Shown piece after piece: positions 2,731-57,112 of a stretch of DNA of 64,000 nt (position 1 is the first letter of the stretch; every line of letters starts with the position of its first letter). A program made the translations under genes and the position numbers. This DNA is from Pelagomonas calceolata (taxonomy: Eukaryota > Sar > Pelagophyceae > Pelagomonadales > Pelagomonadaceae). Location: NCBI GenBank assembly GCA_918797485.1, contig CAKKNE010000003.1, positions 4,898,001 to 4,962,000 on the forward strand, in the 5' to 3' direction. The notes under the pieces are model-generated. The model searched no databases, had not been told where the DNA came from, and saw only the letters and a list, made by a program, of their open reading frames with translations.

Positions 2731-3807
2731 TCAAGCGCTCAAATTCGGGCCTGAAGAATCGATGTAGAGCTCTAAGCTCCACAGCGGGAGACATCGCAGA
2801 CAGGCGCTCTTGAGATTGTGGCGCTTGATGTAATTGGCGATTGCATTGGGCTCGATCTTGTGGCCCTCTGCGGCTTGTATGACCTCCCAGGGCTTGGGAA
2901 AACCAATCCAGTGCACAATTTTTGTGTTTTTTGGCATGGTTTGCCCGTTAAAATACGGACGAACATTGAACTCAGGACCCAGTGGGATGACTGCATGTTT
3001 GTTCTCGCGCCAATGTGAAACTAAGACGTCCTGTTCCGTCGGGTTGCTGCGATCCGGAGCATATTTTCCAGCGACGAGGCGGCTGACTAGCTGGGCGAGC
3101 GTTTTTCGGCTCGGATGGTAGGCAAAAACCCCAGAGTTAAAGTAGTAGGGGTCTTTGGGTGCTTGGCGAGGTTTGTCCACAAGGCCGCGGCCATAGACAG
3201 CCGAGATGCTTCCCTTTGCACATGACGCTACGAGTGTAACCACATCCTGCCGCGTTGTTGCCCTCATAAACAAAGCATCAGCGTCTACGTATAGCGCCCC
3301 GCGCCTAACGTACCGCCCAATGCCCCACGCAAAAAGTTTACTGTATGTTGCCTTGCGCTTCTGCGCTGCAGTGACTGCCATGATACTCTTAATTTGCTGA
3401 ATCCTTTTACCACTGGTACACTCGAGGCCCACCGCACTCAGGAAAGGAGCCACTGTCGAAAGCCCCACAACATAATATTCCAATGGACGTATTATCCTCA
3501 TAAGTATTGAAAAGGGTGGAGCGTCGAGATCCACAACAATAACATGCGGGAGAGAAGGCGTTAAAATGTGCTTTAGCGATGAATGGAGAGCTGATAATCC
3601 GGGAGCGTAGGCCTCGGATGACAGCACGGTCACGAGTGCATGGGTCGCGGGGAGCACCGGTTCCCGACCAGGCATCAGCCCCAGCTTGATGCGACGAAAT
3701 AATTGGCACGGTTGAGTTTCATTCGTCAACTTCGCGTCCAGTTTGCCTGACACCAAAAAAACGAGGGAAAGCTTAATTGAACGATGGTTCATATGCAGTA
3801 ATTTCAC
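2731..3807 (-). CDS. GT8 (glycogenin-like) glycosyltransferase
   Basis: A 358-residue intronless protein with a hydrophobic N-terminus (about residues 11-20) consistent with a signal anchor. The GT8 pattern is clear: HALVTVLSSEAYAPGLSALHSSL near residues 56-78, the metal-binding D-A-D at 175-177 in LYVDADALF, YYFNSGVFAYHPS, TEQDVL, and the C-terminal H-W-I-G-F-P-K-P-W motif. GT8 enzymes transfer sugars from nucleotide-sugar donors with retention of configuration; here the enzyme probably works in the secretory pathway on a glycan or glycoprotein. The acceptor cannot be told. It is the first of several glycan genes set among repeats. Confidence 0.85.
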   Translation of the reverse strand: MKLLHMNHRSIKLSLVFLVSGKLDAKLTNETQPCQLFRRIKLGLMPGREPVLPATHALVTVLSSEAYAPGLSALHSSLKHILTPSLPHVIVVDLDAPPFSILMRIIRPLEYYVVGLSTVAPFLSAVGLECTSGKRIQQIKSIMAVTAAQKRKATYSKLFAWGIGRYVRRGALYVDADALFMRATTRQDVVTLVASCAKGSISAVYGRGLVDKPRQAPKDPYYFNSGVFAYHPSRKTLAQLVSRLVAGKYAPDRSNPTEQDVLVSHWRENKHAVIPLGPEFNVRPYFNGQTMPKNTKIVHWIGFPKPWEVIQAAEGHKIEPNAIANYIKRHNLKSACLRCLPLWSLELYIDSSGPNLSA

Positions 3808-3956
3808 GGAGTACTACCACATGGTAACTTGTGCTGCACAAGCAGCATATGTCTCAAGAACCAAGTTTCTCCGGTCTGATGTCGCATAAGCCCCGGGGCT
3901 GAAGATCCAGCTACAAGCTACCGCGGTGAGGCAAAAGTACCGTAGGTACCGTAGGT

Positions 3957-4083
3957 ATGTCGCAGCCTTATGTAAGGTAGCAGGGTCCTGGCTCACCAGC
4001 CGAGGGCTGGGCCAACCTAACTACGAGAGTGTTTTATAGGAAATTGTTGTTACACCGTAGCGTCAAAGACACTCGCTGTATAC
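3957..4083 (+). repeat. Dispersed 'ATGTCGCAG' repeat, truncated copy
   Basis: A copy of the commonest repeat in the window: ATGTCGCAG, then GTAGCAGGGTCCT, a small CAGCC-GAG-GGCTG hairpin, GAGAGTGTTTTATAG and TTACACCGTAG. It stops after the ACACTCGCTGTATA motif. It is preceded by GTACCGTAGGTACC-type sequence at 3938-3956. Confidence 0.75.
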
Positions 4084-4527
4084 TGGGCTGCTCAGCAGCA
4101 TCGGACACTCGGCGCCCCGTCCGATAGAAAAGTCCGTCGGCCGCGGTTCGCCTCACGGCTCGTCCGATAGGTGGATACATACTTGGTTCTAGTGGGGTGC
4201 GTCCTAGTATGTCCATACGCTAGGTCACTGTGTCTAGCGGCTCGCCAAAATGCACCAGCGATTGACGGTGCCTTCTACCGTCCAAATGGTACATCATATC
4301 AACTCCAGCCCAGTTTTTATACACATTCGACGGAACCGGAGCCGACGGCCCGCGCTCGGAGGGCGGGAAAAGAATTCTACTAGACAACTCCCGAGTTTAT
4401 GTTCGTTTCCTTCCATTTGTTAGGGGTAGAGTCCATGCAGCCGGCCAGAACGTCTAGTGAGCACTGGCATGATCATGTACTCCGTTAGAGCCTCGCCGCG
4501 AAGCGACTTCGCGGCCCCCGCGTTTTC
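4084..4527. other. Unassigned non-coding stretch
   Basis: About 440 bases between the truncated dispersed repeat and the LTR. Only short reading frames without recognisable motifs are present, and I see no RNA gene or regulatory element. Confidence 0.5.
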
Positions 4528-4790
4528 ATAAGACCCGGCTTGAGTTCCAGGAAGGGGGGAGTGAGGTGAAAACTCCCCTAGATATATATCTGCAACGCCA
4601 TAGCCCCCCATCGCCGGATCATGTGATGCATGGCATATTGCCTCGCCTATCAGCACGCGCATATCAGCCCGCGTGCCGGGCTGATGTTTTTACTATATCC
4701 CGTATCTTCTTACTTATCCAAGTGGATCAAGCCCGGCGCTAAGTAGGCGCCGTAAAAACACCGGGGTGAACCTAAAGTAAGTTCACTTCA
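4528..4790 (+). repeat. Solo LTR-like repeat (~260 bp), uninterrupted
   Basis: It starts near AAGACCCGGCTTGAG and ends GTTCACTTCA. The same sequence, inverted, lies directly after a gypsy pol fragment at 52952-53599, where it runs TGAAG...CTTCA. Another partial copy is at about 45775-45895. The TG...CA ends, the ~260-bp length and the position after pol support an LTR. This copy also serves as the empty site for the 382-bp insertion at 53100-53481. Confidence 0.65.
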
Positions 4791-5076
4791 TCACTGGCAT
4801 ACCAAATCTATAAGCATGCCGCATAGTGAATAGACCCCTCTCCAACAACTTTGAGAAGAAGTCCGCAACATTGTAATTTCCGGGACACCAGTAGGGCCTG
4901 ATTATTCCATGCTCATGATAGTTCGAGTCTCTTATTCTGAACTCTCGCAACGCCACCACTGTCTGGGTGCTTGTGTCTTCCTGCACGGCGGAACTGGTCA
5001 GCAACCCCGTCAAAGACGTTATTAACATTTGCTGCGTGGCTTGGAAGCAGGGGGCCCGGGGTTCCCACACTCTCAC
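4783..5076 (-). pseudogene. Ty1/copia RNase H C-terminal remnant
   Basis: A 97-residue remnant. The stretch NYHEHGIIRPYWCPGNYNVADFFSKLLERG matches the end of copia RNase H domains, where a basic helix is followed by a P-x4-N-x-A-D-x-(L/F)-(T/S)-K motif. No RT, integrase or gag is attached. Its stop codon falls a few bases inside the oppositely oriented LTR at 4528-4790, so it was probably cut by that junction. It is a dead fragment. Confidence 0.6.
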
Positions 5077-5178
5077 GTTTCAGCGAGAGTCCTTCCTGTT
5101 GGTATCTCAGTGTCACATTGACACCCGAGAGACCTAGCTACAACAGCTGCATTGTGCACTTGCTGCACCCAGCTCATC
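5057..5178 (+). repeat. 120-bp dispersed repeat ('CACACTCTCACGTTTCAG')
   Basis: A unit running from CCCACACTCTCACGTTTCAG through GACACCCGAGAGACCTAGCT to GCACCCAGCTCAT. Further copies are at 33140-33258 (+), 12893-13012 (-) and 44142-44280 (-). Here it overlaps the upstream side of the copia remnant, so it may be an internal piece of that retroelement family. Confidence 0.75.
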
Positions 5179-5322
5179 AGATTCAAGCACATACCAAAGC
5201 TGATAGCTGAAGTCGCGTGAGAGCGACACCCCGGGCTGGCCCTCACCATAGACTGCAGTGGAACTCCCATCTCTGCAGCACTACTGGTCGTGTAGCTGCT
5301 GCGACAGCAGCTCAGCAGCGCG

Positions 5323-6243
5323 TTATCTGACGCCACATGGGAAATATACGGCACCTCTGCGCCGCACAGCATACTTACATTTCGCTGCACGCCAGGAAGC
5401 ACCGAAGTCAGCACCGCATGTTTCAATGGCTGCGTCGATGTCAGGAGGCTGCTCGCCAATGCCATGGTGCGTGAGAAAAGCTACAAGATTGGCTAGAATG
5501 CGACGGGCATCATCCTGTTGGCGGTCAAAGAGATGCACAGTGTGCAGATGGTCCTTGATGGCAACACAGGCAACGAAGGCCTGATATACGAGAAATGCTG
5601 CTTTCGCCTTAAGTGCTTGAGATGTCTGGTCGACGTAAGCGCGTGTACCCGCAGCCTTGCGGCGCCGACGGCCCCAAATGGGAAAGGCTATGCGTGGGGC
5701 TCCGACGCACCCGCCCTCGACAGATGCAGTGCGATGCAATGTACGCTTGCGTACCCACTGATCTGGGTGGCGAAGCGAGAGCACGACTGGCACGTGCCTC
5801 TCGTGCGCATCGTAGAGCTGCCAGAATTGGTGCCCTACTGGTGTATCTGCGAGGACATCGAACCGGAGCGCATTGCCAGGATTGGAATATTGGGTTGCCG
5901 TGCCGTTTCCTTCAACGTAGTGACCAACCTCGATCCCAAGCGCCACCTCTACCGCACATGAAAGCCATCTTGAACCGGTCGATCCTGCACCCGCAAACAG
6001 CGCGCGGTTGCCTCCGTTTGTTGTCACTAAGGTACGAAGCGCGGGATCGCGATGACACACTGACGTCGCATACTCTGTCTCGTATAGCGTGATCGCAGCG
6101 TCGACTATCGTTGTCGTAATGTTCAGGCGGAGACCAAGAGCACGTGCGTGGAGACCGAGATGCGCTACGCTACACAGCTGGCGCATGCGCTGCGCGTAAG
6201 AGACGACGGATAATAATTGAAGAGCTACGAACACAAATTTCAT
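5323..6243 (-). CDS. Secreted/Golgi sulfotransferase-like protein
   Basis: A 306-residue intronless protein with an N-terminal hydrophobic signal (MKFVFVALQLLSVVSYA). The PAPS 5'-phosphosulfate loop is GAGSTGSRWL (about residues 85-94), and the 3'-phosphate-binding strand is VVLSLRHPDQWVRKR (about 152-167), in the usual order and spacing. Sulfotransferases of this type move sulfate from PAPS to a sugar hydroxyl or amine in the Golgi lumen. The acceptor is unknown. The C-terminal third is not conserved enough to place in a subfamily. It is one of seven sulfotransferase-like loci in the window. Confidence 0.7.
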   Translation of the reverse strand: MKFVFVALQLLSVVSYAQRMRQLCSVAHLGLHARALGLRLNITTTIVDAAITLYETEYATSVCHRDPALRTLVTTNGGNRALFAGAGSTGSRWLSCAVEVALGIEVGHYVEGNGTATQYSNPGNALRFDVLADTPVGHQFWQLYDAHERHVPVVLSLRHPDQWVRKRTLHRTASVEGGCVGAPRIAFPIWGRRRRKAAGTRAYVDQTSQALKAKAAFLVYQAFVACVAIKDHLHTVHLFDRQQDDARRILANLVAFLTHHGIGEQPPDIDAAIETCGADFGASWRAAKCKYAVRRRGAVYFPCGVR

Positions 6244-6279
6244 TTGTGTTGAGCCATCGCATACGAGTTGTACTGCGGT

Positions 6280-6640
6280 ACGACGTCTGTCAAAACCTCA
6301 TACTGCGGTACCTACGGTACGGTACTGGTACCAAGTACCGCAGTAAGGCACCCATACCGCAGTAAGGGGTACTACAGCGATTGTGCTATGTAGCAAGAGT
6401 ATGTCGCTATGGGCAATCCATGGTGGACTGCAATGGCCATTAGAGTTCTAGCTGTAATGAGACTGCTCATTGGGGAATAGGTGGCATACTCAGGCTAGTA
6501 ATCGAGACCAGATCGTGCTAGGAAACCTCTGACTACTAAACGCGCCTTGTGTTTCCGATAAGTCCCGTCAGCATCCCGCTTAGCGTCGATAGACACTCAA
6601 TGTATAGACTCAAATTTAGAGAGTGGGAGATACATATCTA
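6280..6640 (+). repeat. GTACC/GGTAC palindrome cluster and broken dispersed repeat
   Basis: Bases 6280-6365 carry repeated TGCGGTAC, CTACGGTACGG and ACCGCAGTA words. A fragment of the common repeat follows (ACAGCGATTGTGCTATG, then TAGCAAGAGTATGTCGC at 6373-6410), and its other half is found at 6590-6636 (GACACTCAATGTATAGACTC and GTGGGAGATACATATCTA). About 180 bases of unrelated sequence separate the halves. Confidence 0.65.
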
Positions 6641-6699
6641 TTGCATGGGCGTGCTGAATCGTGCTGCGGTTGCGTTTGCGAGGCTGCTGCGGCGCTGGC

Positions 6700-6772
6700 C
6701 AAATGCAACTGTGAAATAATAGGTACTAAATTACCGGTGATTAACCGTTTAATGCCAACCTAGCTCCCGGGG
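6700..6772. repeat. Fragment of a CTAG-ended TIR element
   Basis: Bases 6725-6765 read like the right end of the CTAGGTT family (ATTACCGGTGATTAACCG, then TGCCAACCTAG), compare 11405-11447 and 53100-53481. The left end is not found. Confidence 0.4.
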
Positions 6773-6805
6773 GCCCTTACTTACTTTGCAAGCTTACCCA
6801 GGAGC

Positions 6806-8110
6806 TTACCCTGGTGATTTATCTCCATGATGCCGTGGCGGCCGGCACCACCGTCGGCGCGCTGCCGAGTCATTTTGAAACGCCAAGGTGAGCATATCCT
6901 CCACTGGGACTTGGACACGTGCGGAAAGGCAGTCGTTGATACCATAGGTAACGATCAAATCGCCGGATCCCGGCGCGCGCGCGTAGCCGGAGACAAACTG
7001 AATGAGATCACACCGGTCCGGTGCGTCCAACGACGGAAAACAGAAGGGCCGCGACATCGTGACGATCTGATGCGGCGGGTCGTGCCGCCACAACACGATG
7101 TAGTGGATGTAGACCGTGCCCGGTGGTGGTCCGCGGTACGAGGCCGCCCACGACGACAATGGCGACAGCAAAGGCAGGAACCGTGCCGTCGCGTTAATCT
7201 CGTCGGTATGGACGTGGCCGAACGAGAGACGTAGGCCAGGGCACCACGCGTCGACGGACAGCGGACTCCCGTTGTGGTGGAGACGTCGGCCGCGCAGACC
7301 GACGCCCGGTACCGCGTTTATCGGCCGTTGAAGAAGCGGTGGGACGCCCCTTCGTACATCTGCGACATTCTGGTCGAGCCAGTGAAGCAGCGAGAAGGGG
7401 TCTGCGGCTGTTCCGTCCCAAACAATCCCAAGATTTTTCCCGAAACGGGTTACGTCGAGCGACGCCGGCGATGCCACGTCAGCATGTGCGAGCCAGCGCT
7501 TGCGCGCGGTAATGGTGTTATTTCTGCGCAACACGTCAATAGAGTGCAGGTAAAACTCAGCGACGTCCCGCCTGATGCCGCGCTTGCGTTTGCGGCCGTA
7601 GAACACTGACGTGGCGTATATTCGTCCAGCGATGGTTTTCAGGAAAACGTCGTAGCTACCGTAGTCTGCGGGCCTGGCGGACTGAGCTTCGTGCACAACA
7701 TCCCGAAGACACGCGAGCTCGCGAAATGTCCTATCGTAAAGGCAGAGCATACCACGAATATGGAGCGGCGGCTCAATGGGGGCTCGGCCGCAAAGCAGTT
7801 CGCAGAAGCCGCCGCGGTAGCGGAACGCGACGAGATAGACAGGGTCGCCGCCCTTCTGTCGAAGCACGGCCCTCGTCTCTAACGGTAGGGGCGCGACGCT
7901 CGGATTGAAGAGGTGCGCCCCGCCAAAGGAGACTGGACGCACATCGAGCACCGCAAGCGCCCTGCCAAAGAGTTCGACCGGCGAGAATGTTGCAGTGCCC
8001 CAGCCGCACCGCTGGTGAGCGGGCCGCGCGCCGGCGCACGCGATTAAGGACGTCGCAATACACGTCCGTGCCCTGGTGTATGATGGCATCAACCGGTGGG
8101 CGACAGCCAA
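6806..8110 (-). CDS. Five-bladed beta-propeller glycosidase/phosphorylase-like protein
   Basis: A 434-residue intronless protein. The N-terminus has a short hydrophobic run (CIATSLIACAGA) that could be a signal peptide or anchor. Motifs recall the GH130/GH43-like five-bladed propeller fold: HLFNPSVAPL near residue 66 followed by VYLVAFRYR, then a C-terminal blade with DLIQFVSGYARAPGSGDL and IVTYGINDCLSARV near residue 386. Such proteins hydrolyse or phosphorolyse beta-linked sugars, and related sequences occur next to glycosyltransferases. Catalytic residues cannot be named from sequence alone. Its position between GT and sulfotransferase genes suggests a role in glycan processing. Confidence 0.5.
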   Translation of the reverse strand: MAVAHRLMPSYTRARTCIATSLIACAGARPAHQRCGWGTATFSPVELFGRALAVLDVRPVSFGGAHLFNPSVAPLPLETRAVLRQKGGDPVYLVAFRYRGGFCELLCGRAPIEPPLHIRGMLCLYDRTFRELACLRDVVHEAQSARPADYGSYDVFLKTIAGRIYATSVFYGRKRKRGIRRDVAEFYLHSIDVLRRNNTITARKRWLAHADVASPASLDVTRFGKNLGIVWDGTAADPFSLLHWLDQNVADVRRGVPPLLQRPINAVPGVGLRGRRLHHNGSPLSVDAWCPGLRLSFGHVHTDEINATARFLPLLSPLSSWAASYRGPPPGTVYIHYIVLWRHDPPHQIVTMSRPFCFPSLDAPDRCDLIQFVSGYARAPGSGDLIVTYGINDCLSARVQVPVEDMLTLAFQNDSAARRRWCRPPRHHGDKSPG

Positions 8111-8287
8111 TTAGACAGACGGGAAGGCGGTGGCGCGATGCTCGTTGTGCGCACCGCGCCGGTCCCCATACAGTTTGCTATCCATTCCTCCCCGGCACTG
8201 GGCAAATATGCACTTAATAACAGGACTGCGGTACCGTGTAGGTACCTACGGTACAATTGTACCTACCGTATAGATACCGTAGGTACT

Positions 8288-8585
8288 AGCAAGAGTATGT
8301 CGCAGCGTTATGTAAGTAGCAGGGTCCTAGCTAACCAGCTTAGAGCTGATAGGCCTGACTGCGAGAGTGTTTTATAGTGAACTGTTGTTACACCGTAGTG
8401 CTTTTGACACTCGATGTATAGACTCAAATATTAGAGAGTGGGAGATACATATCTAGGGTAGGAAGGGCTAGTAGGTTTCTCTCTCTACTCCCCCTGGGCG
8501 CGAGCGTCCACTAGATGCGCTTCCACTAGAGGATGTATCAACTCAGTCTATTCACAGGCAAAGTCCATGTGACAAGTGATAGGCT
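8288..8585 (+). repeat. Full-length dispersed 'ATGTCGCAG' repeat (~300 bp)
   Basis: One of the most complete copies: AGCAAGAGTATGTCGCAGCG, GCAGGGTCCTAGCT, hairpin CAGCT-TAG-AGCTG, GAGAGTGTTTTATAGTG, GACACTCGATGTATAGACTC, GTGGGAGATACATATCTAGG, then CTGGGCGCGAGCGTCCA and an extension to GACAAGTGATAGGCTTC. The extension also occurs at 49612-49712 and, in part, at 51195-51275. Confidence 0.8.
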
Positions 8586-8615
8586 TCATAAGCAACAGAC
8601 TTCTTCACGCCAGTG

Positions 8616-9705
8616 ACTTCGACCCCCCCCCACAACGACCCCCCCCTTACGTAACATGCCTAAGTCGCTGTCCCCGCCCCGATTTCGGTTGCCGTGAGGC
8701 TCCGCAGGGTTTGATATCGTAGCGCAGCTCCGATTGTGACTTCTAAAGGGTTGCACTTGTCCTCAGTCCCGAAAGTCGTCGATTTATTTATGTCGCCGCG
8801 TACGCCGAGAACCTCGAATCGGTCTCTCGCGATGCTAAGACGGCCACTACGATAAGCCAAGATGACCGTAGCTTCGCCCGATCGTACCAGGATAGCAGCC
8901 GCGCGGAGGGCAGCTTCTGCGCACGCCCGGCGAGATTTTGTGCGTACGAAGGTGGGGATTCGACTGTAGCTGGATCTTGGCGCTACGTGCGTCTTTTTTT
9001 ATGCTGAAAAGCAGAGTACCCCGCATTTCCGGGCGCTCGGGCAGCCCAAGTGATGCACCTGCTTCCAGTATACGATACGGCTCAATTGCGCTGCTATATT
9101 CGCATCGTGCGGGAATATCTCGTATATTCGGCCTTTTCTCGTAGGCACGTTAGGTAAGGGGGGGGTCTAAGTGCCCTACCATCCTGGCCTACCTAGAAAA
9201 GGCCGAATATACACTCGGGCACCCGCACGATGCGAGGATAGCCGCGCAATTGAGCCGTATCGTATACTTGAAGCAGGTGCATCACTTGGGCTGCCCGAGC
9301 GCCCGGAAATGCGGGATACTCTGCTTTTCAGCATAAAAAAAGACGCACGTAGCGCCAAGATCCAGCTACAGTCGAATCCCCCACCTTCGTACGCACAAAC
9401 TCTCGCCGGGCGTGCGCAGAAGCTGCCCTCCGCGCGGCTGCTATCCTGGTACGACCGGGCGAAGCTACGTTCATCTTGGCGTATCGTAGTGGCCGTCTTA
9501 GCGTCGCGAGAGACCGATTCGAGGTTCTCGGCGTACGCGGCGACATAAATAAATCGACGACTTTCGGGACTGAGGACAAGTGCAACCCTTTAGAAGCCAC
9601 AATTGGAGCTGCGCTACGATACCAAACCCTGCGGAGCCTCACTGCAACCGAAATCGGGGCGGGAACCGTAAATGTGGCCAAGATGGTAAGGGGGGGGTCG
9701 TTGTG
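8616..9705. mobile_element. Head-to-head pair of 0.54-kb CAC...GTG TIR elements
   Basis: Copy A (8631-9173) lies inverted to copy B (9174-9705). Both have ends built of (T/A)CGACCCCCCCC. Copy B is essentially identical to the single element at 46336-46881; copy A has diverged at many positions. An extra left terminus (ACTTCGACCCCCCC) sits before copy A. The short reading frames inside occur on both strands, overlap each other and resemble no transposase, so they are treated as non-coding. Confidence 0.8.
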
Positions 9706-9719
9706 GAGCCGTATCGTAT

Positions 9720-9965
9720 AAGTAGCGGCAGGGTCCTAGCTAACCAGCTTAGAGCTGATAGGCCTGACTGCGAGAGTGTTTTATAGTGAACTGTTGTTAC
9801 CCGTGCTTTTGACTGACACTCGATGCGCGGGACTCAAAATATCGAGAGTGGGAGATGCCATCTAGGGTAGGAAGGGCTAGTAGGTTTCTCTCTCTAGGTA
9901 CCTACCGTAGGTACCTACGGTACCGTAGGTACCGTAGGTACCGTAGGTACGGTACCTACGGCACA
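9720..9965 (+). repeat. Dispersed repeat copy plus GTACCGTAG palindrome array
   Basis: A diverged copy (GGCAGGGTCCTAGCT to GGTTTCTCTCTCTA, 9728-9894) with the CAGCT-TAG-AGCTG hairpin. It is followed at 9895-9962 by back-to-back GGTACCTACCGTAGGTACC-type palindromes, the densest array in the window. Confidence 0.75.
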
Positions 9966-10037
9966 CCCGGAGTGAAATGTACCAGGCATCCCAACTAGTC
10001 GAGCGAGTTGCAACCACCATTAATTCTGGTGTGATAG

Positions 10038-10964
10038 ATGCCAGGTCTAATCGCTCTGCCTATAACTGTCGCCGCGGGGGTTGTATCGACGATAAAGGGG
10101 CAAAACCAAATTATCGGCCCCCGTCCATGCACCTTCCCGCTACCCACGGTCGCGGTTTCAATGAATGCTTCTACTGAACACGCCTACTCTTGGCGCTACA
10201 TGGCCGCAACGCGTGGCGTCGACGCGTTTCAAATGCGTCGAGGCGTTGATAGCAGCGACGAAAGGACAATGGCAACGTTTATTCCCCTCGAGTTGCGGCA
10301 CAGCATCCTTCGCCTCACGGCAGACTTGCGAAAGATTGTATACAGGAAGATTTCTAATTGGGCGGTGACGCGGTCTCTCTGCGCAGATGTAATCCGCGGT
10401 AAATTCAGCGCGAGGGGACATCCCAGCGGTGCGGTCCTTAAACTAGAGGATGATGCACAGTTCCTGCCTGACTTCTGCGGGGCTTCCACCCGCGTCCTAG
10501 AAGCCCTGCCATCGCGCGGCGATTGGGACATACTGTACCTGGGACACTGCGCCGAGGCAACTCACCGAGTTCGCTCCTGCCACCGCATCCAGGGCGCCCC
10601 GCGCGGCCATGAGTTCGTATCGAAGGGAAAGAAACCGATGTGCACACACGCGTATGCCATCACTCGGCGTGGCGCTAGGCGAATTTATGACCTACTAGAA
10701 GGCTGGCCCAGCGTCTATCTGGAGAGGGTCTTGGCTGCAGCCGAGCCAGGCAAGGGGTTCCCGGGCAACAACACACCCCGCATATTCTGGCAAGTGGACT
10801 GGGGACACGACTTCGAATTAGCACATTTGATTAAACGGAACGAGCTCGACGCGTTTTTGGCGTGGCCGCCGACGGTGGTGCAGCCGTGGCAGCTGAGCCG
10901 TAGGGCGAGTTCCGATGACATTTTGCGGCCTGCCCCCTCGGTGTTGCCGGCGGCGTGCGGGTAG
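10038..10964 (+). CDS. GT25-like glycosyltransferase (LPS/collagen galactosyltransferase fold)
   Basis: A 308-residue intronless protein whose N-terminus (LIALPITVAAGVV) can act as signal anchor. GT25 hallmarks are in order: SGAVLKLEDDAQFL (residues 130-143) with the acidic E-D-D, GDWDILYLGHC (161-171), and CTHAYAITRRGARRIYDLL. GT25 enzymes add galactose or related sugars in the ER/Golgi (collagen hydroxylysine) or build bacterial LPS. The acceptor here is unknown. It shares the E-D-D / W-D-I-L-Y layout with 31618-32874 and, more distantly, with 50117-50959 and the remnant at 49762. Confidence 0.75.
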   Translation: MPGLIALPITVAAGVVSTIKGQNQIIGPRPCTFPLPTVAVSMNASTEHAYSWRYMAATRGVDAFQMRRGVDSSDERTMATFIPLELRHSILRLTADLRKIVYRKISNWAVTRSLCADVIRGKFSARGHPSGAVLKLEDDAQFLPDFCGASTRVLEALPSRGDWDILYLGHCAEATHRVRSCHRIQGAPRGHEFVSKGKKPMCTHAYAITRRGARRIYDLLEGWPSVYLERVLAAAEPGKGFPGNNTPRIFWQVDWGHDFELAHLIKRNELDAFLAWPPTVVQPWQLSRRASSDDILRPAPSVLPAACG

Positions 10965-12535: not shown

Positions 12536-12571
12536 TTCCTGCGACTCTCGACACCCTCGAGCACCACCTGC

Positions 12572-12889: not shown

Positions 12890-12892
12890 CTG

Positions 12893-48366: not shown

Positions 48367-48536
48367 CGCATCTGGTCTTTACACCCGGTTGGTGGCACGC
48401 GTAGTACGCTGGGGGGGGGAGTCCTACGGCGCCGTACCCTGTGCACCTCGCACTCGGCTGCGGCTGAAGTGCGCTAGTTTGAGCGCTCACCCCATCTTTC
48501 TAGCGGACCTCCCGAGTAAAAGTAGCAGGCCCGTAG

Positions 48537-48622
48537 CAAGAGTATGTCGCAGCGTTATGTAAAGTAGCGGGGTCCTAGCTCACCAGCCAGAGGCTGGGCC
48601 AAGCCAACTACGAGTGTTTTAC
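48537..48622 (+). repeat. Dispersed 'ATGTCGCAG' repeat, 5' half
   Basis: AGCAAGAGTATGTCGCAGCG to CAACTACGAGTGTTTTA with hairpin CAGCC-AGA-GGCTG. The matching 3' half reappears at 49527-49610 after the intervening 675-bp TIR element and other sequence. Confidence 0.75.
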
Positions 48623-48630
48623 GTAATAGA

Positions 48631-49305: not shown

Positions 49306-49311
49306 ACGGTG

Positions 49312-49380
49312 GCGAAGCGTTCGGGGTCCGTACTACCTGGGGGTGGGTTCAATAAGTGGCTCTCTCTCTCTAGCTCTTTA
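49312..49380 (-). repeat. Dispersed repeat end with AGAGAG tract, reverse copy
   Basis: The complement of 1416-1490: GCGTTCGGGGTCCGTACTAC, GTGGGTTCAATAAGTGGC, CTCTCTCTCTC. Confidence 0.6.
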
Positions 49381-49439
49381 ATGTCGTCGCGGGAGGGGTA
49401 CGGGGGACCCTGCGACGTAACTAGCCTGAGCCTGAGCCG

Positions 49440-49712
49440 TCGCCCCGTACCGTAGGACCGGCGTAGGTACAAGTACCTACGGTACCGTAGGTCCCTACGG
49501 TACCGTAGGTACCGTCGTAGCGTCGTTAGACACCCCATGTATAGACTCAATTTAGAGAGTGGGAGATACATATCTAGGGTAGGAAGGGCTAGGGGGTTTC
49601 TCTCTCCAGGGCTGGGCGCGAGCGTCCATTAGAAGCTTCTTCTACTCGAGCCTGAGGATGTACCTCAGCTTGCTCATTGACAAGGTAGTCCATATGGCAA
49701 GTGATAAGCTTC
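49440..49712 (+). repeat. GTACCGTAGG cluster and dispersed-repeat 3' half with extension
   Basis: GTACCTACGGTACCGTAGG arrays at 49450-49515 are followed by ATGTATAGACTCAATTTAG, GTGGGAGATACATATCTAGG (49540-49578), GGGCGCGAGCGTCCATTAG and GGCAAGTGATAAGCTTC. Confidence 0.7.
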
Positions 49713-49761
49713 TAAGGTGAACTTACTTTACCCGTGATACGACGATACACTGGCAATTTGA

Positions 49762-50031
49762 TTGAGCGTGATGCTAGTGAAGAAACAACACCTGAACACG
49801 TCAGGCTTGACGTTGGTGTTGGAGGACGACATTGAGCTCAATATCAGTCGACTCCCCGAACTCGTGTGTCGTGTACCGCCGGCGGACGATTGGGATGTCA
49901 TACGGTTTTATTGCAAGCGCTACAGCAATGCAAGCCGTGCCAGTTCTGCCAGTGACTCAGCACTTGAGCTAGGCGTCGGCCTAAATTACGACACTGGCAC
50001 ATGGCCCGGGAGGATGGGCCAGTTAGCCTGA
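49762..50031 (+). pseudogene. GT25-like glycosyltransferase fragment
   Basis: Eighty-nine residues keep only the core: TSGLTLVLEDDIELN (E-D-D motif) and DDWDVIRFYCKRY (the W-D-I-L-Y equivalent). There is no signal anchor and no C-terminal half, and the frame stops soon after GLNYD. It is a truncated relative of the GT25 genes at 10038 and 31618. A spliced gene is unlikely because the flanks are repeats. Confidence 0.6.
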
Positions 50032-50116
50032 GTTAGAGCGGCCACTGTGGCAGTTTCGTATTCGAGAAATAATTCTGGCAAGGGAGGCCCCTGACCTTAT
50101 CCCACTACAAATCGGC

Positions 50117-50959
50117 TCATTTCAATCGCTGGAATGCGATCCCCCTTTGGTTCCTCGGGGCGTTCCTAACCGCGACGGGCGGTAAGTCGACGAGTCTTTG
50201 CGAAAGGTGGGAGAAGCGATCTCGAAGCCAGATGTCAATGTTTTTCGCATTCCAGTCTGAGCGGAGGACAGGCTCGACTTGGGCCAGCTTTCTCGCTATT
50301 CTTGCAAAGTCCTTTGACACGACATACGCGTGGGTCCCTGGTCCAAAGCCTATGGCCCACCCCCGCCGATCGGCCTGTGGGTGTTGTTTTGTGAACCTGA
50401 AGGCACCCAGCTGCCAGATGCCCACGCGGCCAACGCGGCGCTGGGGCCAGTATCTAGCAAAAAGCGCGGAGAAATTGTGATGAAACTTTACATCATCCTC
50501 GAAGATGAAGGCACATTCGAGCGATCGCGACCGTGCCAAAAGATCTATCATTTTCAGGTGCGCAAAATTTATGTTTTGCCGGCTGCCACCATTTGACGAG
50601 GTCTTATTACCTGCGCTTCCAGACCAATAAGGGAACTCGGCTGCCAGGCACCCGTGGACGTCGTCGCCGGATAGGCCACGGGTGAATGGCCAGCCAATCC
50701 GTCTGAACTCCTCCGTCGCGTGTTTTAACCTCTCCGGCCGAAGTCCGTCATGGAGAAGCCATATGTTCGATCCGTGCTTAGTGTCCGGCTGGCAGTCGAG
50801 TGGCAACTGTGGGGCCTTGGAGCATTCTGCCGCCAGATCCAGCCTGGTTGACATCGAGCTTTGAGTCGCAGGCTCCGGCCAACGCACACCGCCAGATGCG
50901 ACGACACAGTTTTGCATGGCACACGCGATTAAGAGGAGAGAGGACAAGATCATGGCCAA
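50117..50959 (-). CDS. GT25-like glycosyltransferase, secreted
   Basis: A 280-residue intronless protein with signal peptide MAMILSSLLLIACAMQNCVVA. It opens with NIWLLHDGLRPERLKHATEEFRRIGWPFTR, the GT25 start where the polypeptide names a 'player' residue and position. AHLKMIDLLARSRSLECAFIFEDDVKFHHNF (133-163) carries the E-D-D motif. GTHAYVVSKDFARIARKL is the conserved A-Y segment, and NIDIWLRDRFSHL a late acidic site. It is more complete at its N-terminus than the other GT25 copies here. The acceptor is unknown. Confidence 0.75.
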   Translation of the reverse strand: MAMILSSLLLIACAMQNCVVASGGVRWPEPATQSSMSTRLDLAAECSKAPQLPLDCQPDTKHGSNIWLLHDGLRPERLKHATEEFRRIGWPFTRGLSGDDVHGCLAAEFPYWSGSAGNKTSSNGGSRQNINFAHLKMIDLLARSRSLECAFIFEDDVKFHHNFSALFARYWPQRRVGRVGIWQLGAFRFTKQHPQADRRGWAIGFGPGTHAYVVSKDFARIARKLAQVEPVLRSDWNAKNIDIWLRDRFSHLSQRLVDLPPVAVRNAPRNQRGIAFQRLK

Positions 50960-50993
50960 ACTATCACGTGTTATACTGCCCCGGCGGTTAACA

Positions 50994-51275
50994 AGAGTAT
51001 GTCGCAGCGTTATGTAAAGTAGCAGGGTCCTAGCTCACCAGCCGAGGGCTGGGCCAACCTGGCTACGAGAGTGTTTTATAGTGAACTGTTGTTACACCGT
51101 AGTGCTTTTGACACTCGATGTATAGACTCAAATATTAGAGAGTGGGAGATGCATATCTAGGGTAGGAAGGGCTAGTAGGTTTCTCTCTCTACTCCCCCTG
51201 GGCGCGAGCGTCCATTAGATGCCTTTCTACTAGAGAATGTATCAACTCAGTCTATTCACTGGCAAAATCCATCAG
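50994..51275 (+). repeat. Dispersed 'ATGTCGCAG' repeat, full copy
   Basis: ACAAGAGTATGTCGCAGCG to CACTGGCAAAATCCATCAGG, including core, CTCCCCCTGGGCGCGAGCG and the 3' extension. Hairpin CAGCC-GAG-GGCTG. Confidence 0.8.
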
Positions 51276-51765
51276 GCGCATAGCTGCGGTAGGGCACGCC
51301 GCGAGCCTCCAGAAGCCCCATAAAACCATAAGAACGAGGTCATACAACTACCAGGCATCAAACCAATGGCCCTCACCGCAGCTAAGCGTCGCATGATGTG
51401 TGTGGGCTATGTAGTGCCGAACGCCGCGACCGCCTCAGGCTCGTACGCAACAACAGCAAAGGGTTATACGATTTGACTTTCGCTGGTGAACGCTTGGCTA
51501 CCGCATAAGCCAATGCCAATGCGACGCACCCGCGTACGTGCGCCGGGAGCCCCTCTACTGCGAGGGAGTGGTGTATAGGACGTGGTGTTATGGGTCATGC
51601 CTAGGCCTGTAGATGATCATTAGTACATGCTCCCCATATTGTATTAAACTATACTAGGACTCCCTATACCCGTTGCACCGCAGTATATTTTACCGCAGTA
51701 TACCTACGGTATTTACCTACCGTAGGTACCTACGGTACCGTAGGTACCTACGGTACGGTAATATT
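51276..51765. other. Intergenic stretch ending in a palindrome array
   Basis: Bases 51276-51690 show no gene. Bases 51693-51760 carry GCAGTATA repeats and GGTACCTACGGTACCGTAGG arrays directly upstream of the next gene. Confidence 0.55.
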
Positions 51766-51797
51766 GAGATACAATATTCTCCCCGCAACACTGTGTA

Positions 51798-52930
51798 ATG
51801 GTGATCATGCTACCCATACCCATAGGGAGGACCGCCGGCATCCTTTTTGCCTTTGCCCTCTTGGCTCGTGGTCTGCGCGAGAACGAGCCGCGCAACACGT
51901 CGCGTGCGGCTTCCGCCATCGCGCATCCGCCCAAGCGAAGGAGCCCCATGATGATGATGCGCGACACGCGCGCGTACGGAGGCAGACGAGATAGGCTCAT
52001 AGCTCCCGAAGCGGGCATTATGTTCTCGCACCACAAATCGGGCCATATCCTGTCGCACAAGATCGTCGCGCGCGCGCGCCGGCTCGGTGGCGACGTGCGC
52101 CACGGAGGTCACTGGTTCGGCCAGGGCCTCGACGAGGGAGCAATTGCGTCGTTCGCCCGGCGAGATCGATACTTCAAATATCGCTGCCATAGTTGCTTCC
52201 AGGGGGCGCTCGTGCCGACGGCGCGCGTCGTGAATATAGTCCGGGACCCCTTCAGCGTGGTCGCATCAGGGTACGCGTACCGAACCAGAGCGGAATGTGA
52301 AATGGGGAAAGTTGATGAACTGTTGCGTTCGTAGTTGAGATCACTCCGCTTTCCATCATTCCAAAAGATGGCCGGAGGGACCTTGCCGAGCTAGGGTGCT
52401 TTAGACAACCACTCGAACGCAGGTATCACGTTCGCGGCAGCGAGCGGATGGCGCTGCTATTTCGCGACAGTGGCGAGCGTGGAGGCGATCTCGTGTCGTT
52501 TTTTGATGGCTCCGCAGTAAAATACGGGCTGCCTCTCCCACGGTCGCGCGACGAGAGCTACGTTGACTACCTTGCGCGCCTCCCCGTCGACCGCGGCGTT
52601 CTCGCGGAGATGGTCCGCGTCGACGGGTGGGATGGGCCAGAGATGGTCGCATCCGTCCGTGCGACGCGACACCTAAAAAACGGACAGAATTACTGCATCG
52701 AGCGCTTCGCTGGGCCCCTCGACACCTTCCGCAGCGCCGTCGCAGAAGTCCTCGTGGGCCTCGGTGTCGCATCTCTCGCAGTGGAAGCCTTTGACGAATT
52801 TCACGAGCCCGGTGAGCACGCAACGCGGCGAAACGACGTCGAAGCGCTCGTCGAGGCCGCGAGGAAACACGACGCGCGCTTCTTCGGCGCGTCTTTTGCC
52901 AACGCGAGCCACGAGCTCGGATGCGCGTGA
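51798..52930 (+). pseudogene. Sulfotransferase-like gene with a broken reading frame
   Basis: First part (51798-52334): hydrophobic signal GILFAFALLARGL, a degenerate PAPS loop IMFSHHKSGHILSHKIV, and VVNIVRDPFSVVASGYAYR (3'-phosphate site). It stops at 52334. The next 600 bases are open in another frame (from about 52320: ITPLSIIPKDGRRDLAELGCF ... MALLFRDSGERGG ... FAGPLDTFRSAVAEVLVGLGV), which looks like the family's C-terminal half. The two frames nearly abut, leaving no room for a normal intron, so a small frameshift is the simplest reading. The loop also has H-K-S-G instead of K-x-G-T. It is probably a decaying copy. Confidence 0.6.
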
Positions 52931-52951
52931 TATTGTGCTTTGGCCTTCGAC

Positions 52952-53599
52952 TGAAGTGAACTTACTTTAGGTTCACCCCGGCGTTTTTACGGCGCCTACT
53001 TAGCGCCGGGCTTGATCCACTTGGATAAGTAAGAAGATACGGGATATAGGGAAATATCAGCCCGGGCACGTGCCGGCTGATATAGCGTGCTGATAGGCGC
53101 TAGGTTGCCGTTAACCTGTTAATTACCCGTTATTAACCTATAATTACCCCTCGGAGGGGATCCGGGGTTAATAACCCGCTCAATAACCCGACGGGTTTTC
53201 GACTAAACCCGTTTAGTGAGTTTAGCGAAGACCCCCTCCGGGCGAGCGGATGGGCGCAAGCAGCCCATTGGGCTTTTGGATACGTACAGGTGCGCCAAGG
53301 CAAGTACCAAGTCATGTGGCCCGGCGCGGCCCAGGCCCGCGCCAATGGCCCGTGAGGCCCCCTCCCCCTACCCCTCTATAAGATCCCGGGGTTAATAACC
53401 CGTACTAACGGGTAATTACCCGGGTTACTAACCCCGGGCCGCGATTGGGGTTAATAACCCCTGGGGTTAATGGCAACCTAGGATAGGCGAGAGTAATGTA
53501 GCCATAGATCCGGCGATAGGGGGCTATGGCGTTGCAGATATATATCCAGGGGAGTTTTCACCTCACTCCCCCCTTCCTGGAACTCAAGCCGGGTCTTCA
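52952..53599 (-). repeat. LTR of a gypsy-like element, split by a 382-bp insertion
   Basis: Read on the minus strand it runs TGAAGACCCGGCTTGAG ... GTTCACTTCA. Without the insert it is about 258 bases, matching 4528-4790. It starts one base after the stop of the pol fragment. No clear polypurine tract lies between, so the call rests on TG...CA ends, copy number and position. Confidence 0.65.
53100..53481. mobile_element. 382-bp CTAG-ended TIR element nested in the LTR
   Basis: Ends CTAGGTTGCC and GGCAACCTAG are perfect inverted copies. The octamer GATAGGCG flanks both sides (53092-53099, 53482-53489). The uninterrupted LTR at 4528-4790 holds the target once (complement GTGCTGATAGGCGAGGC). The interior has many TTAACC/GGTTAATAACCC blocks and no coding region. 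Confidence 0.92.
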
Positions 53600-53600
53600 G

Positions 53601-54257
53601 CTAATTTACCGTTGAAATCAACATCACCGCGTATCCATCAGTAACCAATTCCTTAACGATTTTCACTGGAATCTCGTTCTTATTCGTCAAACTGAACGGG
53701 TAGAATCGCAATTCGGACCTGTGGACCCTCATGGTCATTTCTTCTAAGGTTTTTGTCTTTTTCCACTTATAGATCTCAAGATCGTCCCTGCTGTCGATGT
53801 ACGCTGGGGCATAAGCCCGCTTGGCGAGGCTCTTAGCTTTGGAGTAGGTCCCAAACCAATGGAGATGGAACTCCTCTTTGGGGTTCTGGGGTTTAACTGC
53901 GCTAATCTTGGCCAATCCCCAGTTTGGAGTCCCATCGTCATCAGTCAGGTCTACAATACACATGTCCCCAGCCTCAAACTTGTCTCTATCATCATCATCC
54001 AATAAGGCATGGTCGAAATCTTGAAGGATATGGTCGTTCTCACGGTTATATGGGTATACATTCCGCACATTTTGAGTGTCAGCTGGTGTGCCGTCCAGAT
54101 TCTTGAGGTGCACTGCACTTCTAACGATCTTTTCGATCCGGAACGGCCCAGTAAATTGCATTAGGAGCTTAGAGGACACTGGGGCATCACTATTCCGATT
54201 GGGTGGACGATACACTATGACCAATTTACCTGGCTGGAGCCAGCGCGTGTTGGCCAC
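53601..54257 (-). pseudogene. Ty3/gypsy-like pol C-terminus (integrase tail)
   Basis: A 218-codon frame. LQPGKLVIVYRPPNRNSDAPVSSKLLMQFTGPFRIEKIVRSAVHLKNLDG is the typical integrase C-terminal 'GPF' module of gypsy elements. An extension follows, GDMCIVDLTDDDGTPNWGLAKISAV ... EEFHLHWFGTY, resembling a small Tudor/BAH-like barrel, and may bind chromatin. The rest of pol and gag is missing upstream (54258 on), so this is a 3' fragment. It is followed by the LTR as expected for Ty3/gypsy gene order (integrase last). Confidence 0.7.
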
Positions 54258-54840
54258 GTAATATTTCTCAGGCTGAGGCTATCAAGACCAAGACCAGTTG
54301 AATAGGTGTTTCTGTGTTCCGCGCGCGGCCCGGGGGCTCGCCTATTCACTGCCAGTGGCAGCATGCTATATGGGAACCCGGTCAACTTCGTTAGCATTCG
54401 GGACAAATTTTGGAATAGGAGCCTGAGGGATTAAGAAGGGAAAGGGGTAGTCCAGGACACACAAGCGCTCGCCACTATTATCCGCTAGTACCGGAGAGGC
54501 TCCATCAGTATAAGTAACTCAGCCTGAGCCTGAGCCTGAGGCTGGGGGATCATAGCGCAATCGCTGCAGGCACGGTCCTCATGATCCGTTTTTTTCAATT
54601 TCAATCTAAGAATAGCACATTGCAGGGCCAGGACAGCATCGCCCCGGCGATAGGAATGCATACACGGGATAGAATTTTTTCGTCGAGGAAACTTACACAT
54701 CAACGTCGACCAATTCAGCTCGGGCGAGGAGATTGAAAAAAAGCCGGCAAAGCCTCGAAAGGGCAGCCAAGGCGTCGGCACCGGACTCTACGTTCTTTGC
54801 CGCGCTCCCCCGCCTGCGCTGGGCCACACGTACAAGTAAA
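54258..54840. other. Intergenic stretch with GCCTGA microsatellite
   Basis: AGCCTGAGCCTGAGCCTGAG at 54519-54543 is a short hexamer repeat seen singly elsewhere (28610, 49425). ATAGCGCAATCGCTGCAGG at 54551 is a variant of the ACAGCGATTG motif. No gene is recognised before 54841. Confidence 0.5.
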
Positions 54841-57112
54841 ATGGCGCGGCGGCAGCACGTAGCCGTGGCCGCGTGCCTCGCCGTGTTCCTGAGTGGGGCC
54901 CTTTACGTGGCCGGCGGCGGTGCCGCTGCAGCCGCGCGCGCCCGCCGCCTGCTGGGGCAGCCCGGCGCCGCGGGCGCGGAACTGACGCTCGCGGCGAAAG
55001 CGCCGGCAAACTCGGCCTCGCCGCGCATCCCGAGGCGCGTCTTTCAGACGGCGCGGTCGGCGGCCGACGTAGACGCAGACCTCTCTCGAAGACTCGAAAC
55101 CACCAGCCCCGGCTTCGAGCGCGTATTTTTCGACGACGCCGCCGCGCAGGAATACATGGCGAGAGCATACGCGGGAACGCGGATACTCGACGCGTACGAG
55201 GCCGCGCCGCGCGTCGTGATGCGCGCGGATCTGTTTCGGCTGGCGGTCGTCGCGAGGGAGGGCGGCTTCTACTTCGACGTCGACGTGTACGTCAAGCGGT
55301 CGCTGGAGCCGCTCGTCGCGCACGCGGCCGTGCTTCCCATGGAATGGTGGCTCTCCGACGACGCGTTTATGGAGCGGCATCACAGAAATGTTCTGGATGC
55401 GGAGGAACACTGGCAAGTTGGCAACTACGCCTTCGGCGCGCGACCCAACCACCCGCTGCTGATCGACGCGCTCGACGAGGCCGCGAAAAGGACGCTGGCG
55501 GCGGTCGGCGCGCCCGGCGATGCCGACGTCCTTCGGACGACCGGACCATACATGCTCAGCGAACTCTACCACGCCGGGCGGCGCGCGGGAAAGTACGCCG
55601 ACGTCGTGCTGCTCCGAGGCGACGCAGAGCCACGCGTGGGCCGTGCGACGAGGGGTGGCGCGGACTGGCACAAATTCGGAAGCTTCGCCGAGCATCTCCT
55701 CGCGCACACGTGGGTAACAGAGGCGAGCCGTCGGCTCGACGAGACGTACGATGACGAGACGTACGACGACGAGACGTACGACGACGAGGCCTCGGGCGAC
55801 CAGGGCTCGTACTCGTACGAGGCCTCGGGCGACCAGGGCTCGTACTCGTACGAGGCCTCGGGCGACCAGGGCTCGTACTCGTACGAGGCCTCGGGCGGCC
55901 AGGGCTCGTACTCGTACGAGACAAGCTCCGCGGGCGACCAGGGCTCGTACTCGTACAGCTCCTCCTACGGCGGCGTCCCGAACGACAGCGTCCTCTGCCC
56001 CGGGCTCCCGGCTGCGGCCTACTGCGACTGCGGCGGCGATTGCACCGGCCAACCCGACTGGTGCGCGTGCCCGGAGGCCTTGGAGTGCTGCGGACAGTCA
56101 CAAGCGCCCTACTCGTACTCGTACCGTCCCTGTCCCGACGAAGAGGATGATTTTACGGACTGCCTCTCGTCTACGCCCGGTTTCACGGCTGACGACGACT
56201 TCTTCACCGACGACGACTTCGACCACAGCGGCCACGACCACGGCCGGCGTCTGGACGACTTTTCGCCGGAGACATGCGACGACGTCCAGCAGTGGCTTTC
56301 AAACGGACAGTGCGCCAACGGGCCCGCCGCATGTCAGGCGGAATATCAGGCGTACGTCGAGTGCACTTACGAGGACTTGGCCCTGAGCGCACTCGGTCTC
56401 GCGTGCGATTTCAACTGCTCGTCAACGGGAATTTGGGACGGCTGCGACTGGGTGCAAAGCAACAGCAACACGGCCAGCGAGCAATATATTGGGGACGCGG
56501 CCTCGCCGGACGAATGCATCGCCATGGTCCTCGCGCAGTGCCCGGACGCGACGATCGCCAACCTCGCAGTCGACGGAGAGGGGTCATGCTGGTGCCAGTA
56601 CGGAGAGGATCCTCAACCCGACTCCTCGGGCTGGATGTCCTGCGTGCTCCCGCTCGCAACGATGCTGGTCTACGAGGACGAAAACTGTGCCGTCGAAATC
56701 GGCGCCGATGGCGTCGCGTGCGACTGGAGCGCAGGCTTGGGCAACGACGACCTTGGTCAGCAGCCATATTACTATGGAACAGCAGACGACTACCACACCA
56801 ACGACGGCGTGTACTACGGAGCAGCAGACGACTACTACACCAACGACGGCGTGGACTACGGAGCAGCAGACGACTACTACACCAACGACGGCGTGGACTA
56901 CGGAGCAGCAGACGACTACCACACCAACGACGGCGTGTACTACGGAGCAGCAGACGACTACTACACCAACGACGGCGTGTACTACGGAGCAGCAGACGAC
57001 TACCACACCAACGACGGCGTGTACTACGGAGCAGCAGACGACTACTACACCAACGACGGCGTGTACTACGGAGCAGCAGACGACTACTACACCAACGGCG
57101 TGTACTATGGAG
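54841..57112 (+). CDS. GT32 glycosyltransferase domain with Tyr/Asp-rich repeat tail
   Basis: Start [26 protein letters not shown], a type II anchor. The GT32 (Och1/capsular polysaccharide) core is [17 protein letters not shown] (about residue 61) and [27 protein letters not shown] with D-V-D (about 126-150), then [17 protein letters not shown] and [11 protein letters not shown]. After it come DETYDDE and [11 protein letters not shown] repeats, Cys-rich segments (about 55975-56450), a WSC-like Cys region and 14-residue repeats of the type [14 protein letters not shown]. The frame is then lost near 57118, where one base is missing from a repeat unit, and the same repeats continue in the next frame to the window end. 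It may be one giant gene with 57113-64000, or a fusion in the assembly. Confidence 0.7.

Follow-up and report, generated by a model that had tools for sequence, protein, structure and literature searches.

The right arm of chromosome 3 of Pelagomonas calceolata (contig CAKKNE010000003.1, hereafter C3) holds most of the genomic copies of one repeat family, together with about five times more sulfotransferase genes than its size would predict. Study of a stretch of 64 kb from this arm, C3:4,898,001-4,962,000, which as a whole is called the window below, leads us to the tentative reading, favoured here although we are almost evenly divided about it, that the window belongs to a niche on this chromosome arm where secretory glycan enzymes specific to the lineage collect, chiefly sulfotransferases and family 32 glycosyltransferases (GT32). 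Among the papers listed by searches of one open-access library, as judged from titles and openings of abstracts, we found no description of such a compartment in a pelagophyte, and there is nothing on one in the excerpts available of PMC10087736, PMC13284251 and PMC13390643. C3 is 5,385,517 bp long in an assembly of 32,445,274 bases and 8 contigs. Positions without a contig name are those of the window; the region read in detail extends 100 kb further on each side, i.e. 264 kb in total, and everything said about islands refers to this region.

One repeat family marks the arm

The reference copy of the arm-marking repeat has its core at positions 8388-8487 (plus strand). A repeat search with this core gave at least 42 genomic matches (40 of 89 candidates scored), 34 of which lie in the last megabase of C3. 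A pattern search of 27 nt, allowing at most 3 mismatches, found 72 copies (the reversed-pattern control found 0), 46 of them between C3:4,342,870 and C3:5,379,547. The arm is defined as C3 from 4,338,001 rightwards, i.e. about 1.05 Mb or 3.24% of the nuclear genome, these bounds having been set after the repeat matches were seen; core density is then 43.9 copies per Mb in the arm and 0.83 elsewhere. Further cores within the same mismatch limit are found in the window at 21401, 26693, 33306, 46013, 49557 and 51140.

Of the 26 copies outside the arm, 21 fall into clusters, a single one on each chromosome: 3 at C3:3.21-3.29 Mb, 3 on C1 (2.80-2.93 Mb), 3 of the 7 on C2 (3.46-3.66 Mb, the other 4 being at 0.18-0.25 Mb), 4 on C4 (1.50-1.87 Mb), 5 of the 6 on C5 (1.57-1.83 Mb, with one at 2.85 Mb) and 3 on C6 (1.74-1.92 Mb). 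According to the part of the genome paper available to us, each chromosome has one low-GC, centromere-like trough of about 259 kb and 52% GC, read as recombination-poor (PMC9481584). Our clusters presumably coincide with these regions, which would thus carry the same repeat family; the arm differs from them in being about 1.05 Mb long and, in the part read, near the mean GC content. A whole arm rich in a repeat family that otherwise clusters once per chromosome, with no GC trough in the 264 kb read, goes unmentioned in that part of the paper. The same source describes six nuclear contigs plus a plastid and a mitochondrial one, and near-identical duplicated ends for contigs 3/6 and 1/5, which we also met as equal-scoring matches (C3:162257/C6:3746602, C1:36245/C5:36203 and C1:200150/C5:200188).

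Two side observations concern the distribution of the cores. At C3:4535537-4553269 and C3:4741195-4758935, core spacings are near-equal (297+17435 and 304+17436 bases) with orientations swapped, by chance or through an old rearrangement. The smaller second cluster on C2 (177017-246811), near the chromosome end, has a Sulfotransfer_2 match at C2:199832.

Sulfotransferases and GT32 are over-represented in the arm

Genome-wide scans with six Pfam families gave 20 raw matches for PF00685, 22 for PF13469, 11 for PF03567, 8 for PF01755, 11 for PF04488 and 26 for PF01501. Merging within groups and removal of one duplicated-end copy (C6:3746602, equivalent to C3:162257) left 84 loci: 42 sulfotransferase, 11 GT32, 23 GT8 and 8 GT25, the latter count being partial since the GT25 model misses the window's own GT25-like genes. 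The arm contains 7 of the 42 sulfotransferase loci, about a fivefold excess (P=3.7e-4; 6 of 41 and P=0.0014 if the window is excluded), and 3 of the 11 GT32 loci (P=0.0046; 2 of 10 and P=0.036 without the window). For the six families together the figures are 12 of 84 (P=1.7e-5) and, window excluded, 9 of 81 (P=8e-4); all arm-enrichment P values are uncorrected. Kinases, used as an unrelated yardstick, show no enrichment, with 3 of 132 raw matches in the arm (126 of 291 candidates scored). Within 25 kb of any repeat copy there are 6 of 41 sulfotransferases as compared to 5 of 126 kinases (P=0.027). The excess seems to belong to the arm more than to the repeats as such, and few loci underlie it.

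The original prediction saw in the window a concentration of such genes and proposed to compare its density with the rest of the genome. With the six-family count the window has 3 loci and is joint richest among 64 kb stretches, tied with one that starts at C3:4,569,940 in the same arm, while all remaining stretches have at most 2: it is at the top of the density distribution and is not a dramatic outlier. In the stretch with which it ties, a GT32 and two sulfotransferase matches lie within 6 kb (C3:4569940-4575677).

Low-GC islands and ordinary genes

In the region read, GC content and repeat coverage of 264 one-kb bins are anticorrelated (rho=-0.65), and lowered GC is confined to islands (0.54-0.59). 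Three of these occupy 40% of the window: island A (1501-11500; 10 kb, GC 0.56, 28% interspersed repeats), island B (28001-30500; 2.5 kb, GC 0.54) and island C (42001-55000; 13 kb, GC 0.56, 30% interspersed repeats), A and C being the two largest of the region. With up to 6 mismatches allowed, 13 of 23 repeat cores lie in islands or at most 300 bases from them, a zone amounting to 36% of the sequence (P=0.037). Signal-like N-termini, as judged by a rough hydrophobicity rule that takes early in-frame ATGs as starts, were seen in 19 of 28 open reading frames (ORFs) of islands, a set which includes some shadow frames, vs 13 of 53 others (P=2.6e-4). Of the two ideas already raised for the window, that of a compartment rich in repeats where secretory enzymes gather finds support, and the compartment, at about 1.05 Mb, reaches far beyond the window.

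In a codon model trained on long ORFs of the 264 kb region, the enzymes named in islands A and C have negative scores, apart from the second piece of the gene at 51768; the model picks no ORF between the left end of island A and position 11453. There begins a block of ordinary genes (11453-26188) encoding a TMEM65 protein, a protein of Tudor-SN type (five SNase domains and a Tudor domain), a MYND protein, a Pellino-like FHA/RING protein, enolase, an ion channel with a cyclic-nucleotide domain and an EF-hand protein; a methyltransferase is also among the ordinary genes that separate the window enzymes. Ordinary genes of the arm have a high GC content at third codon positions (GC3), often 0.85-0.97. 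The window is not one gene cluster: a cluster for a single sulfated polysaccharide would consist of contiguous, functionally linked genes, and here enolase, Tudor-SN, ion channel and Pellino-like genes are interposed. With these interposed genes, and with other glycan-type enzymes in the flanks, the second idea raised for the window, a sulfated-polysaccharide locus, is at most a possible reading.

Besides the repeat cores, the islands contain other repeated elements. A 997-nt foldback element (8670-9666), found by inverted and direct repeat search, has a partial second copy at 46350-46842 (97-100% alike), so that the two copies sit in the two large islands. Island B carries a 994-nt palindromic element (28832-29825) with outer arms of 157 nt, 100% complementary, and further nested arms; it is unlike the arm-marking repeat. 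The low-GC ORF at 53601-54278 (minus strand), with no Pfam or NCBIfam match, is presumably a retroelement remnant, since it reads to us like the C-terminus of an integrase. A reverse-transcriptase zinc finger was also matched weakly, with E=0.0066, which is below cut-off. The translation of the ORF at 48734-49303 recurs nearly identically, over about 150 residues, in another island about 66 kb away (L025:381-1190; that copy is without Pfam match). No Rfam family reached its gathering threshold within the window.

In the flanks, islands hold a GT8 (3.5e-12), a Sulfotransfer_3-like protein (6e-4), a Methyltransf_24-GT2 fusion (5.6e-10/2.7e-7), a DUF5672 protein (1e-4) and a weak FkbM-type methyltransferase match (0.034); a Sulfotransfer_1 match (PF00685, 5.4e-7) and a FUT8-like frame (3.1e-5) lie at island edges. 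As a control we used 53 flank genes out of 85 codon-scored ORFs contained in single loci, leaving aside 18 that belong to the window, 8 that had been scanned separately and 6 shorter than 170 aa; 14 further codon-scored ORFs span locus borders and lie outside the 85. Some of the 53 control genes are in islands, so that the control is not purely non-island. Among the families listed for it (25 of 78 at first, then 22 of 22, 25 of 25 and 25 of 43 in subset rescans), most are general cellular ones, together with matches to GT61, TOD1_MUCI70, RXYLT1, DUF3431 and TMEM260.

Sulfotransferase-like genes of the window

The ORFs listed in the original prediction were found where it had placed them. Its seven sulfotransferase-like loci are borne out to very different extents. 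The gene at 36829-37899 (plus strand; K-T-G-T-T-W ... R-D-P-x5-S) is a member of the sulfotransferase superfamily by profile (PF00685, E=1.8e-18, above cut-off); it matches solved sulfotransferases (best E=2.8e-06), was found also in the genome-wide Pfam scan, lies outside the islands and has a GC3 of 0.90. Since 13 sulfotransferase loci outside the arm have GC3 values of 0.67-0.93, low GC is not inherent to the family. Two other loci are probably members too, to judge from sub-threshold PF13469 (Sulfotransfer_3) matches: 29856-31085 (minus strand, E=3.6e-4) and 38455-39832 (minus strand), a gene in two overlapping frames, of which 38969-39832 has E=4.5e-5 and the second piece, 38455-39009, only 0.02-0.03. 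Support is marginal for 51768-52930 (plus strand; H-K-S-G-H ... R-D-P-x5-S), also in two overlapping frames, where PF13469 gives E=0.067 in 51768-52334 and the motifs fit a loosened pattern.

Three loci remain below the detection of every profile used for the superfamily (PF00685, PF13469 and PF03567): 44507-45565 (minus strand), which has K-C-A-G-T-T ... R-D-K-x5-S and fits the strict two-motif pattern; 47401-48378 (minus strand), where I-P-K-C-A-G-S-S ... R-D-P-x5-S was seen by eye and the two motifs are separated by 37 residues, a short spacing; and 5323-6297 (minus strand), which has a signal-like N-terminus and G-S-T-G-S-R-W and R-H-P motifs that lack the usual K and S. None of the three has a Pfam match at E<=0.1, a convincing solved relative or an NCBIfam sulfotransferase match. 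Structure predictions for 44507 and 5323, made from alignments of 4 sequences, have a predicted local distance difference test score (pLDDT) of 33, too low for reading a fold, and when 5323, 44507 and 47401 were compared, profile against profile, with four Sulfotransfer_2 proteins of the genome, the shallowness of the profiles left the result uninformative. Among 651 ORFs of at least 150 aa in the region read, 4 contain the strict two-motif pattern typical of binding to 3′-phosphoadenosine 5′-phosphosulfate (5′-PSB and 3′-PB motifs, in this order), and 3 of these are in the window: 36829, 38969 and 44507. In 100 shuffles the mean was 0.36 and the maximum 3. The looser pattern, which includes 51768, is found in 7 ORFs vs a shuffled mean of 2.17 and a maximum of 6. 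In our judgement, at least three of the seven loci are real sulfotransferases and probably five or six are; 5323 is doubtful.

The enzymes had also been described as mostly intronless, which is not established for all of them, given that 38455 and 51768 are each broken into two overlapping frames. Single GT-AG introns able to give an open frame at these loci number 113 and 127, respectively, and do not discriminate between an intron and a frameshift.

Glycosyltransferases and other enzyme-like loci

The prediction that GT8, GT25, GT31 and GT32 enzymes and a nucleotide-sugar transporter share the window stands best for GT8 and GT32, both over the Pfam cut-offs. The GT8-like gene (2731-3813, minus strand; PF01501, E=3.8e-8) has a signal-like N-terminus and a GC3 of 0.55; the GT32 frame (54673-57777, plus strand; PF04488, E=2.4e-9), with a long repetitive tail of tandem repeats, was recovered at C3:4953087 in the genome-wide scan. 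Matches below cut-off were obtained for a GT31/Fringe-like protein (40037-42421, minus strand, a frame of 794 aa; PF02434, E=0.0014), which also matches chains of a beta-1,3-glucosyltransferase (E=0.047) and of C1GALT1 (E=0.089), and for a UAA/SLC35B-type transporter (34891-36168, plus strand; PF08449, E=1.9e-4), at which the codon model favours opposite-strand frames. A chance origin of the sub-threshold Pfam matches of 29856, 38969, 40037 and 34891 seems unlikely. The GT25 assignments stand less well: PF01755 matches are weak for 10038-10964 (plus strand, E-D-D motif; E=0.053) and 50117-51034 (minus strand, F-E-D-D; E=0.011), and for 31618-32877 (minus strand) an E-D-D motif seen by eye comes with no Pfam or NCBIfam match. 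For the protein encoded at 6806-8110 (minus strand), the label propeller glycosidase-like is not confirmed, as no match appeared in Pfam, NCBIfam or solved structures; we treat it as an orphan with a signal-like N-terminus. The frame at 43067-43837, with a signal-like N-terminus as well, looks START-like by eye and has no Pfam match.

Orphan genes have diverged relatives in public sequences

Relatives of three island genes, 5323, 44507 and 50117, were sought in a collection of 5.8 billion proteins from public genomes and metagenomes, with a search that needs shared words of 5 residues. For 5323 there are three relative clusters (98, 90 and 48% identity), for 44507 also three (100, 87 and 87%; 97, 88 and 80% over the alignment) and for 50117 four (98, 71, 73 and 71%, the 73% form standing for 126 sequences and the 98% form for 53). 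All are unnamed, and most are on short contigs. Two relatives of 44507 have an extra cysteine-rich stretch at the N-terminus, which is not present in the window gene. The diverged relatives remain open proteins along lengthy alignments, which suggests constraint.

No second full copy of any of the three genes was found in the genome. Simple tandem duplication, which the original prediction had already argued against, can be rejected: 5323 and 44507 have a single genomic match each, and 50117 has one broken partial relative, 61% identical, located 135 kb rightward in the same arm (C3:5083976-5084245). A third match of 50117, at C3:4526634, involves query residues 1-35, mostly upstream of the Met, and looks like a shared repeat. 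In the absence of second full copies, the divergent forms would come from other strains or species. These forms and the broken relative would be compatible with an arm in which genes are gained, lost and decaying. A viral or bacterial source was set aside after four scans of viral contigs and one of bacterial and archaeal contigs, which reach fairly close relatives and covered four island genes (one in the bacterial scan), had given no relative.

DISCUSSION

The niche that we propose might work as follows. GC-rich ordinary genes of the arm would be broken up by low-GC, repeat-rich islands, as they are in the 264 kb read, and these islands would hold secreted or Golgi-type enzymes together with orphan genes. 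The repeats may drive gene gain, loss and duplication in the arm, the gene products may decorate and sulfate a cell-surface glycan, and changes in this glycan could be selected by viruses or grazers. Several of our results weigh against this reading. Of the 15 loci named initially, 9 have half or more of their length in islands, which make up 40% of the window (P=0.09), so that island placement alone leaves the positions of the enzymes unexplained; those outside are 36829, 38455, 40037, 31618, 34891 and 54673, and only the GT8 gene, among the three loci over Pfam cut-offs, is in an island. Some island genes of the flanks score as ordinary in the codon model, and the GT61, TOD1_MUCI70, RXYLT1 and TMEM260 matches belong to codon-scored flank genes. 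Mean GC, at 0.631 for the window and 0.625 and 0.677 for the flanks, is not below that of the genome, given as 63% in the available part of PMC9481584. There is no arm enrichment of GT8 (2 of 23, P=0.17) or of GT25 as counted by Pfam (0 of 8). When the distance to a repeat copy is set at 50 kb, sulfotransferases (7 of 41) no longer differ from kinases (12 of 126; P=0.15). Finally, the boundaries of the arm were drawn from the repeat matches afterwards.

One may therefore ask whether the niche is merely passive: repeats would build up neutrally, weakly constrained lineage-specific secretory genes would survive among them, and sulfotransferases would be frequent there as a large secretory family, without any shared pathway or selection. 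We regard this as rather unlikely, yet as a serious competitor, because the window enzymes are of different families with ordinary genes interspersed, GT8 and GT25 are not enriched, and the same repeats cluster once per chromosome in presumably centromere-like regions, where neutral build-up is the usual reading. It is at odds with the arm enrichment of sulfotransferases (7/42) but not of kinases (3/132), and with the diverged relatives of 5323, 44507 and 50117, which stay open over long alignments in a way that suggests constraint. A more radical doubt is that motifs were read too generously and the concentration is for the most part an artefact of this, with at most three or four real enzymes of these families in the 64 kb. 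Only three loci pass the uniform genome-wide Pfam yardstick, and 5323, 47401, 6806 and 31618 lack profile support; the window nevertheless ties as the richest 64 kb by that same yardstick, two more sulfotransferases and the GT31-like protein have independent sub-threshold support, and the strict two-motif count of 4 exceeds the maximum of 3 reached in 100 shuffles. We hold such an artefact to be quite unlikely.

Less probable, in our opinion, is that the arm is a recombination-suppressed mating-type or sex-linked region with surface glycans serving in cell recognition, for which the big outlier chromosome of Mamiellales would be a comparable case (PMC13242883, as excerpted). The repeat family does cluster once per chromosome, in what we take to be the low-GC troughs that are read as recombination-poor in PMC9481584 (same part), and public sequences contain relatives of 50117 at 71-73% identity, but the ordinary genes of the arm keep a GC3 often at 0.85-0.97 and GC in the part read is close to the mean, unlike the regions with 52% GC. 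As for recent horizontal gain of island genes from giant viruses or bacteria, it seems very improbable. An Aureococcus virus is reported, in the part of PMC5917014 at hand, to carry a carbohydrate sulfotransferase gene, AaV_102, and the island genes are low in GC, mostly uninterrupted and of orphan character; against this, the viral and bacterial contig scans (fairly close relatives only, four genes) showed no relative, and signal-like N-termini and intermediate GC suit host genes.

The proposed glycan-enzyme niche has a parallel in the small outlier chromosome (SOC) of Mamiellales, known in Ostreococcus tauri as the viral immunity chromosome, for which the available portion of PMC5082852 lists repeats, transposon remnants, lower GC, glycosyltransferases, methyltransferases, sugar transporters and orphan genes, and reports that surface-glycan genes on it change expression with virus resistance. 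Like the SOC, the arm is a compartment of a picoalgal genome that is repeat-rich (46 of 72 cores in 3.24% of the genome) and has lower-GC segments, putative surface-glycan genes and orphan genes. Unlike the SOC, it is part of a 5.4 Mb stramenopile chromosome and not a separate small chromosome, its mean GC in the part read is near that of the genome with low GC restricted to islands, and, within the six families counted, sulfotransferases are the over-represented class, with GT32 enriched and GT8 and GT25 not. By analogy, the arm would work like the SOC without being a member of it. A link of the arm to viruses is plausible: infected Aureococcus cells are without glycocalyx, and the virus expresses AaV_102 immediately post-infection (PMC5917014, in the part cited above). 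It is a bolder suggestion, and one that we consider unlikely though worth stating, that the right arm of chromosome 3 is the stramenopile counterpart of the viral-immunity chromosome of green picoalgae, i.e. a repeat-driven compartment of fast turnover whose task would be to alter the cell-surface glycan, chiefly through its sulfation, and which would have arisen independently in one of the most abundant eukaryotes of the ocean.

A repeat family that clusters once per chromosome is now tied to a whole arm which, in the 264 kb read, has no GC trough. If it is true that picoalgae of unrelated lineages each keep a repeat-rich compartment in which surface-sugar enzymes are swapped, the turnover of glycans would count as a widespread strategy against viruses and grazers in the open ocean, and the arm tells where in the Pelagomonas genome to look.

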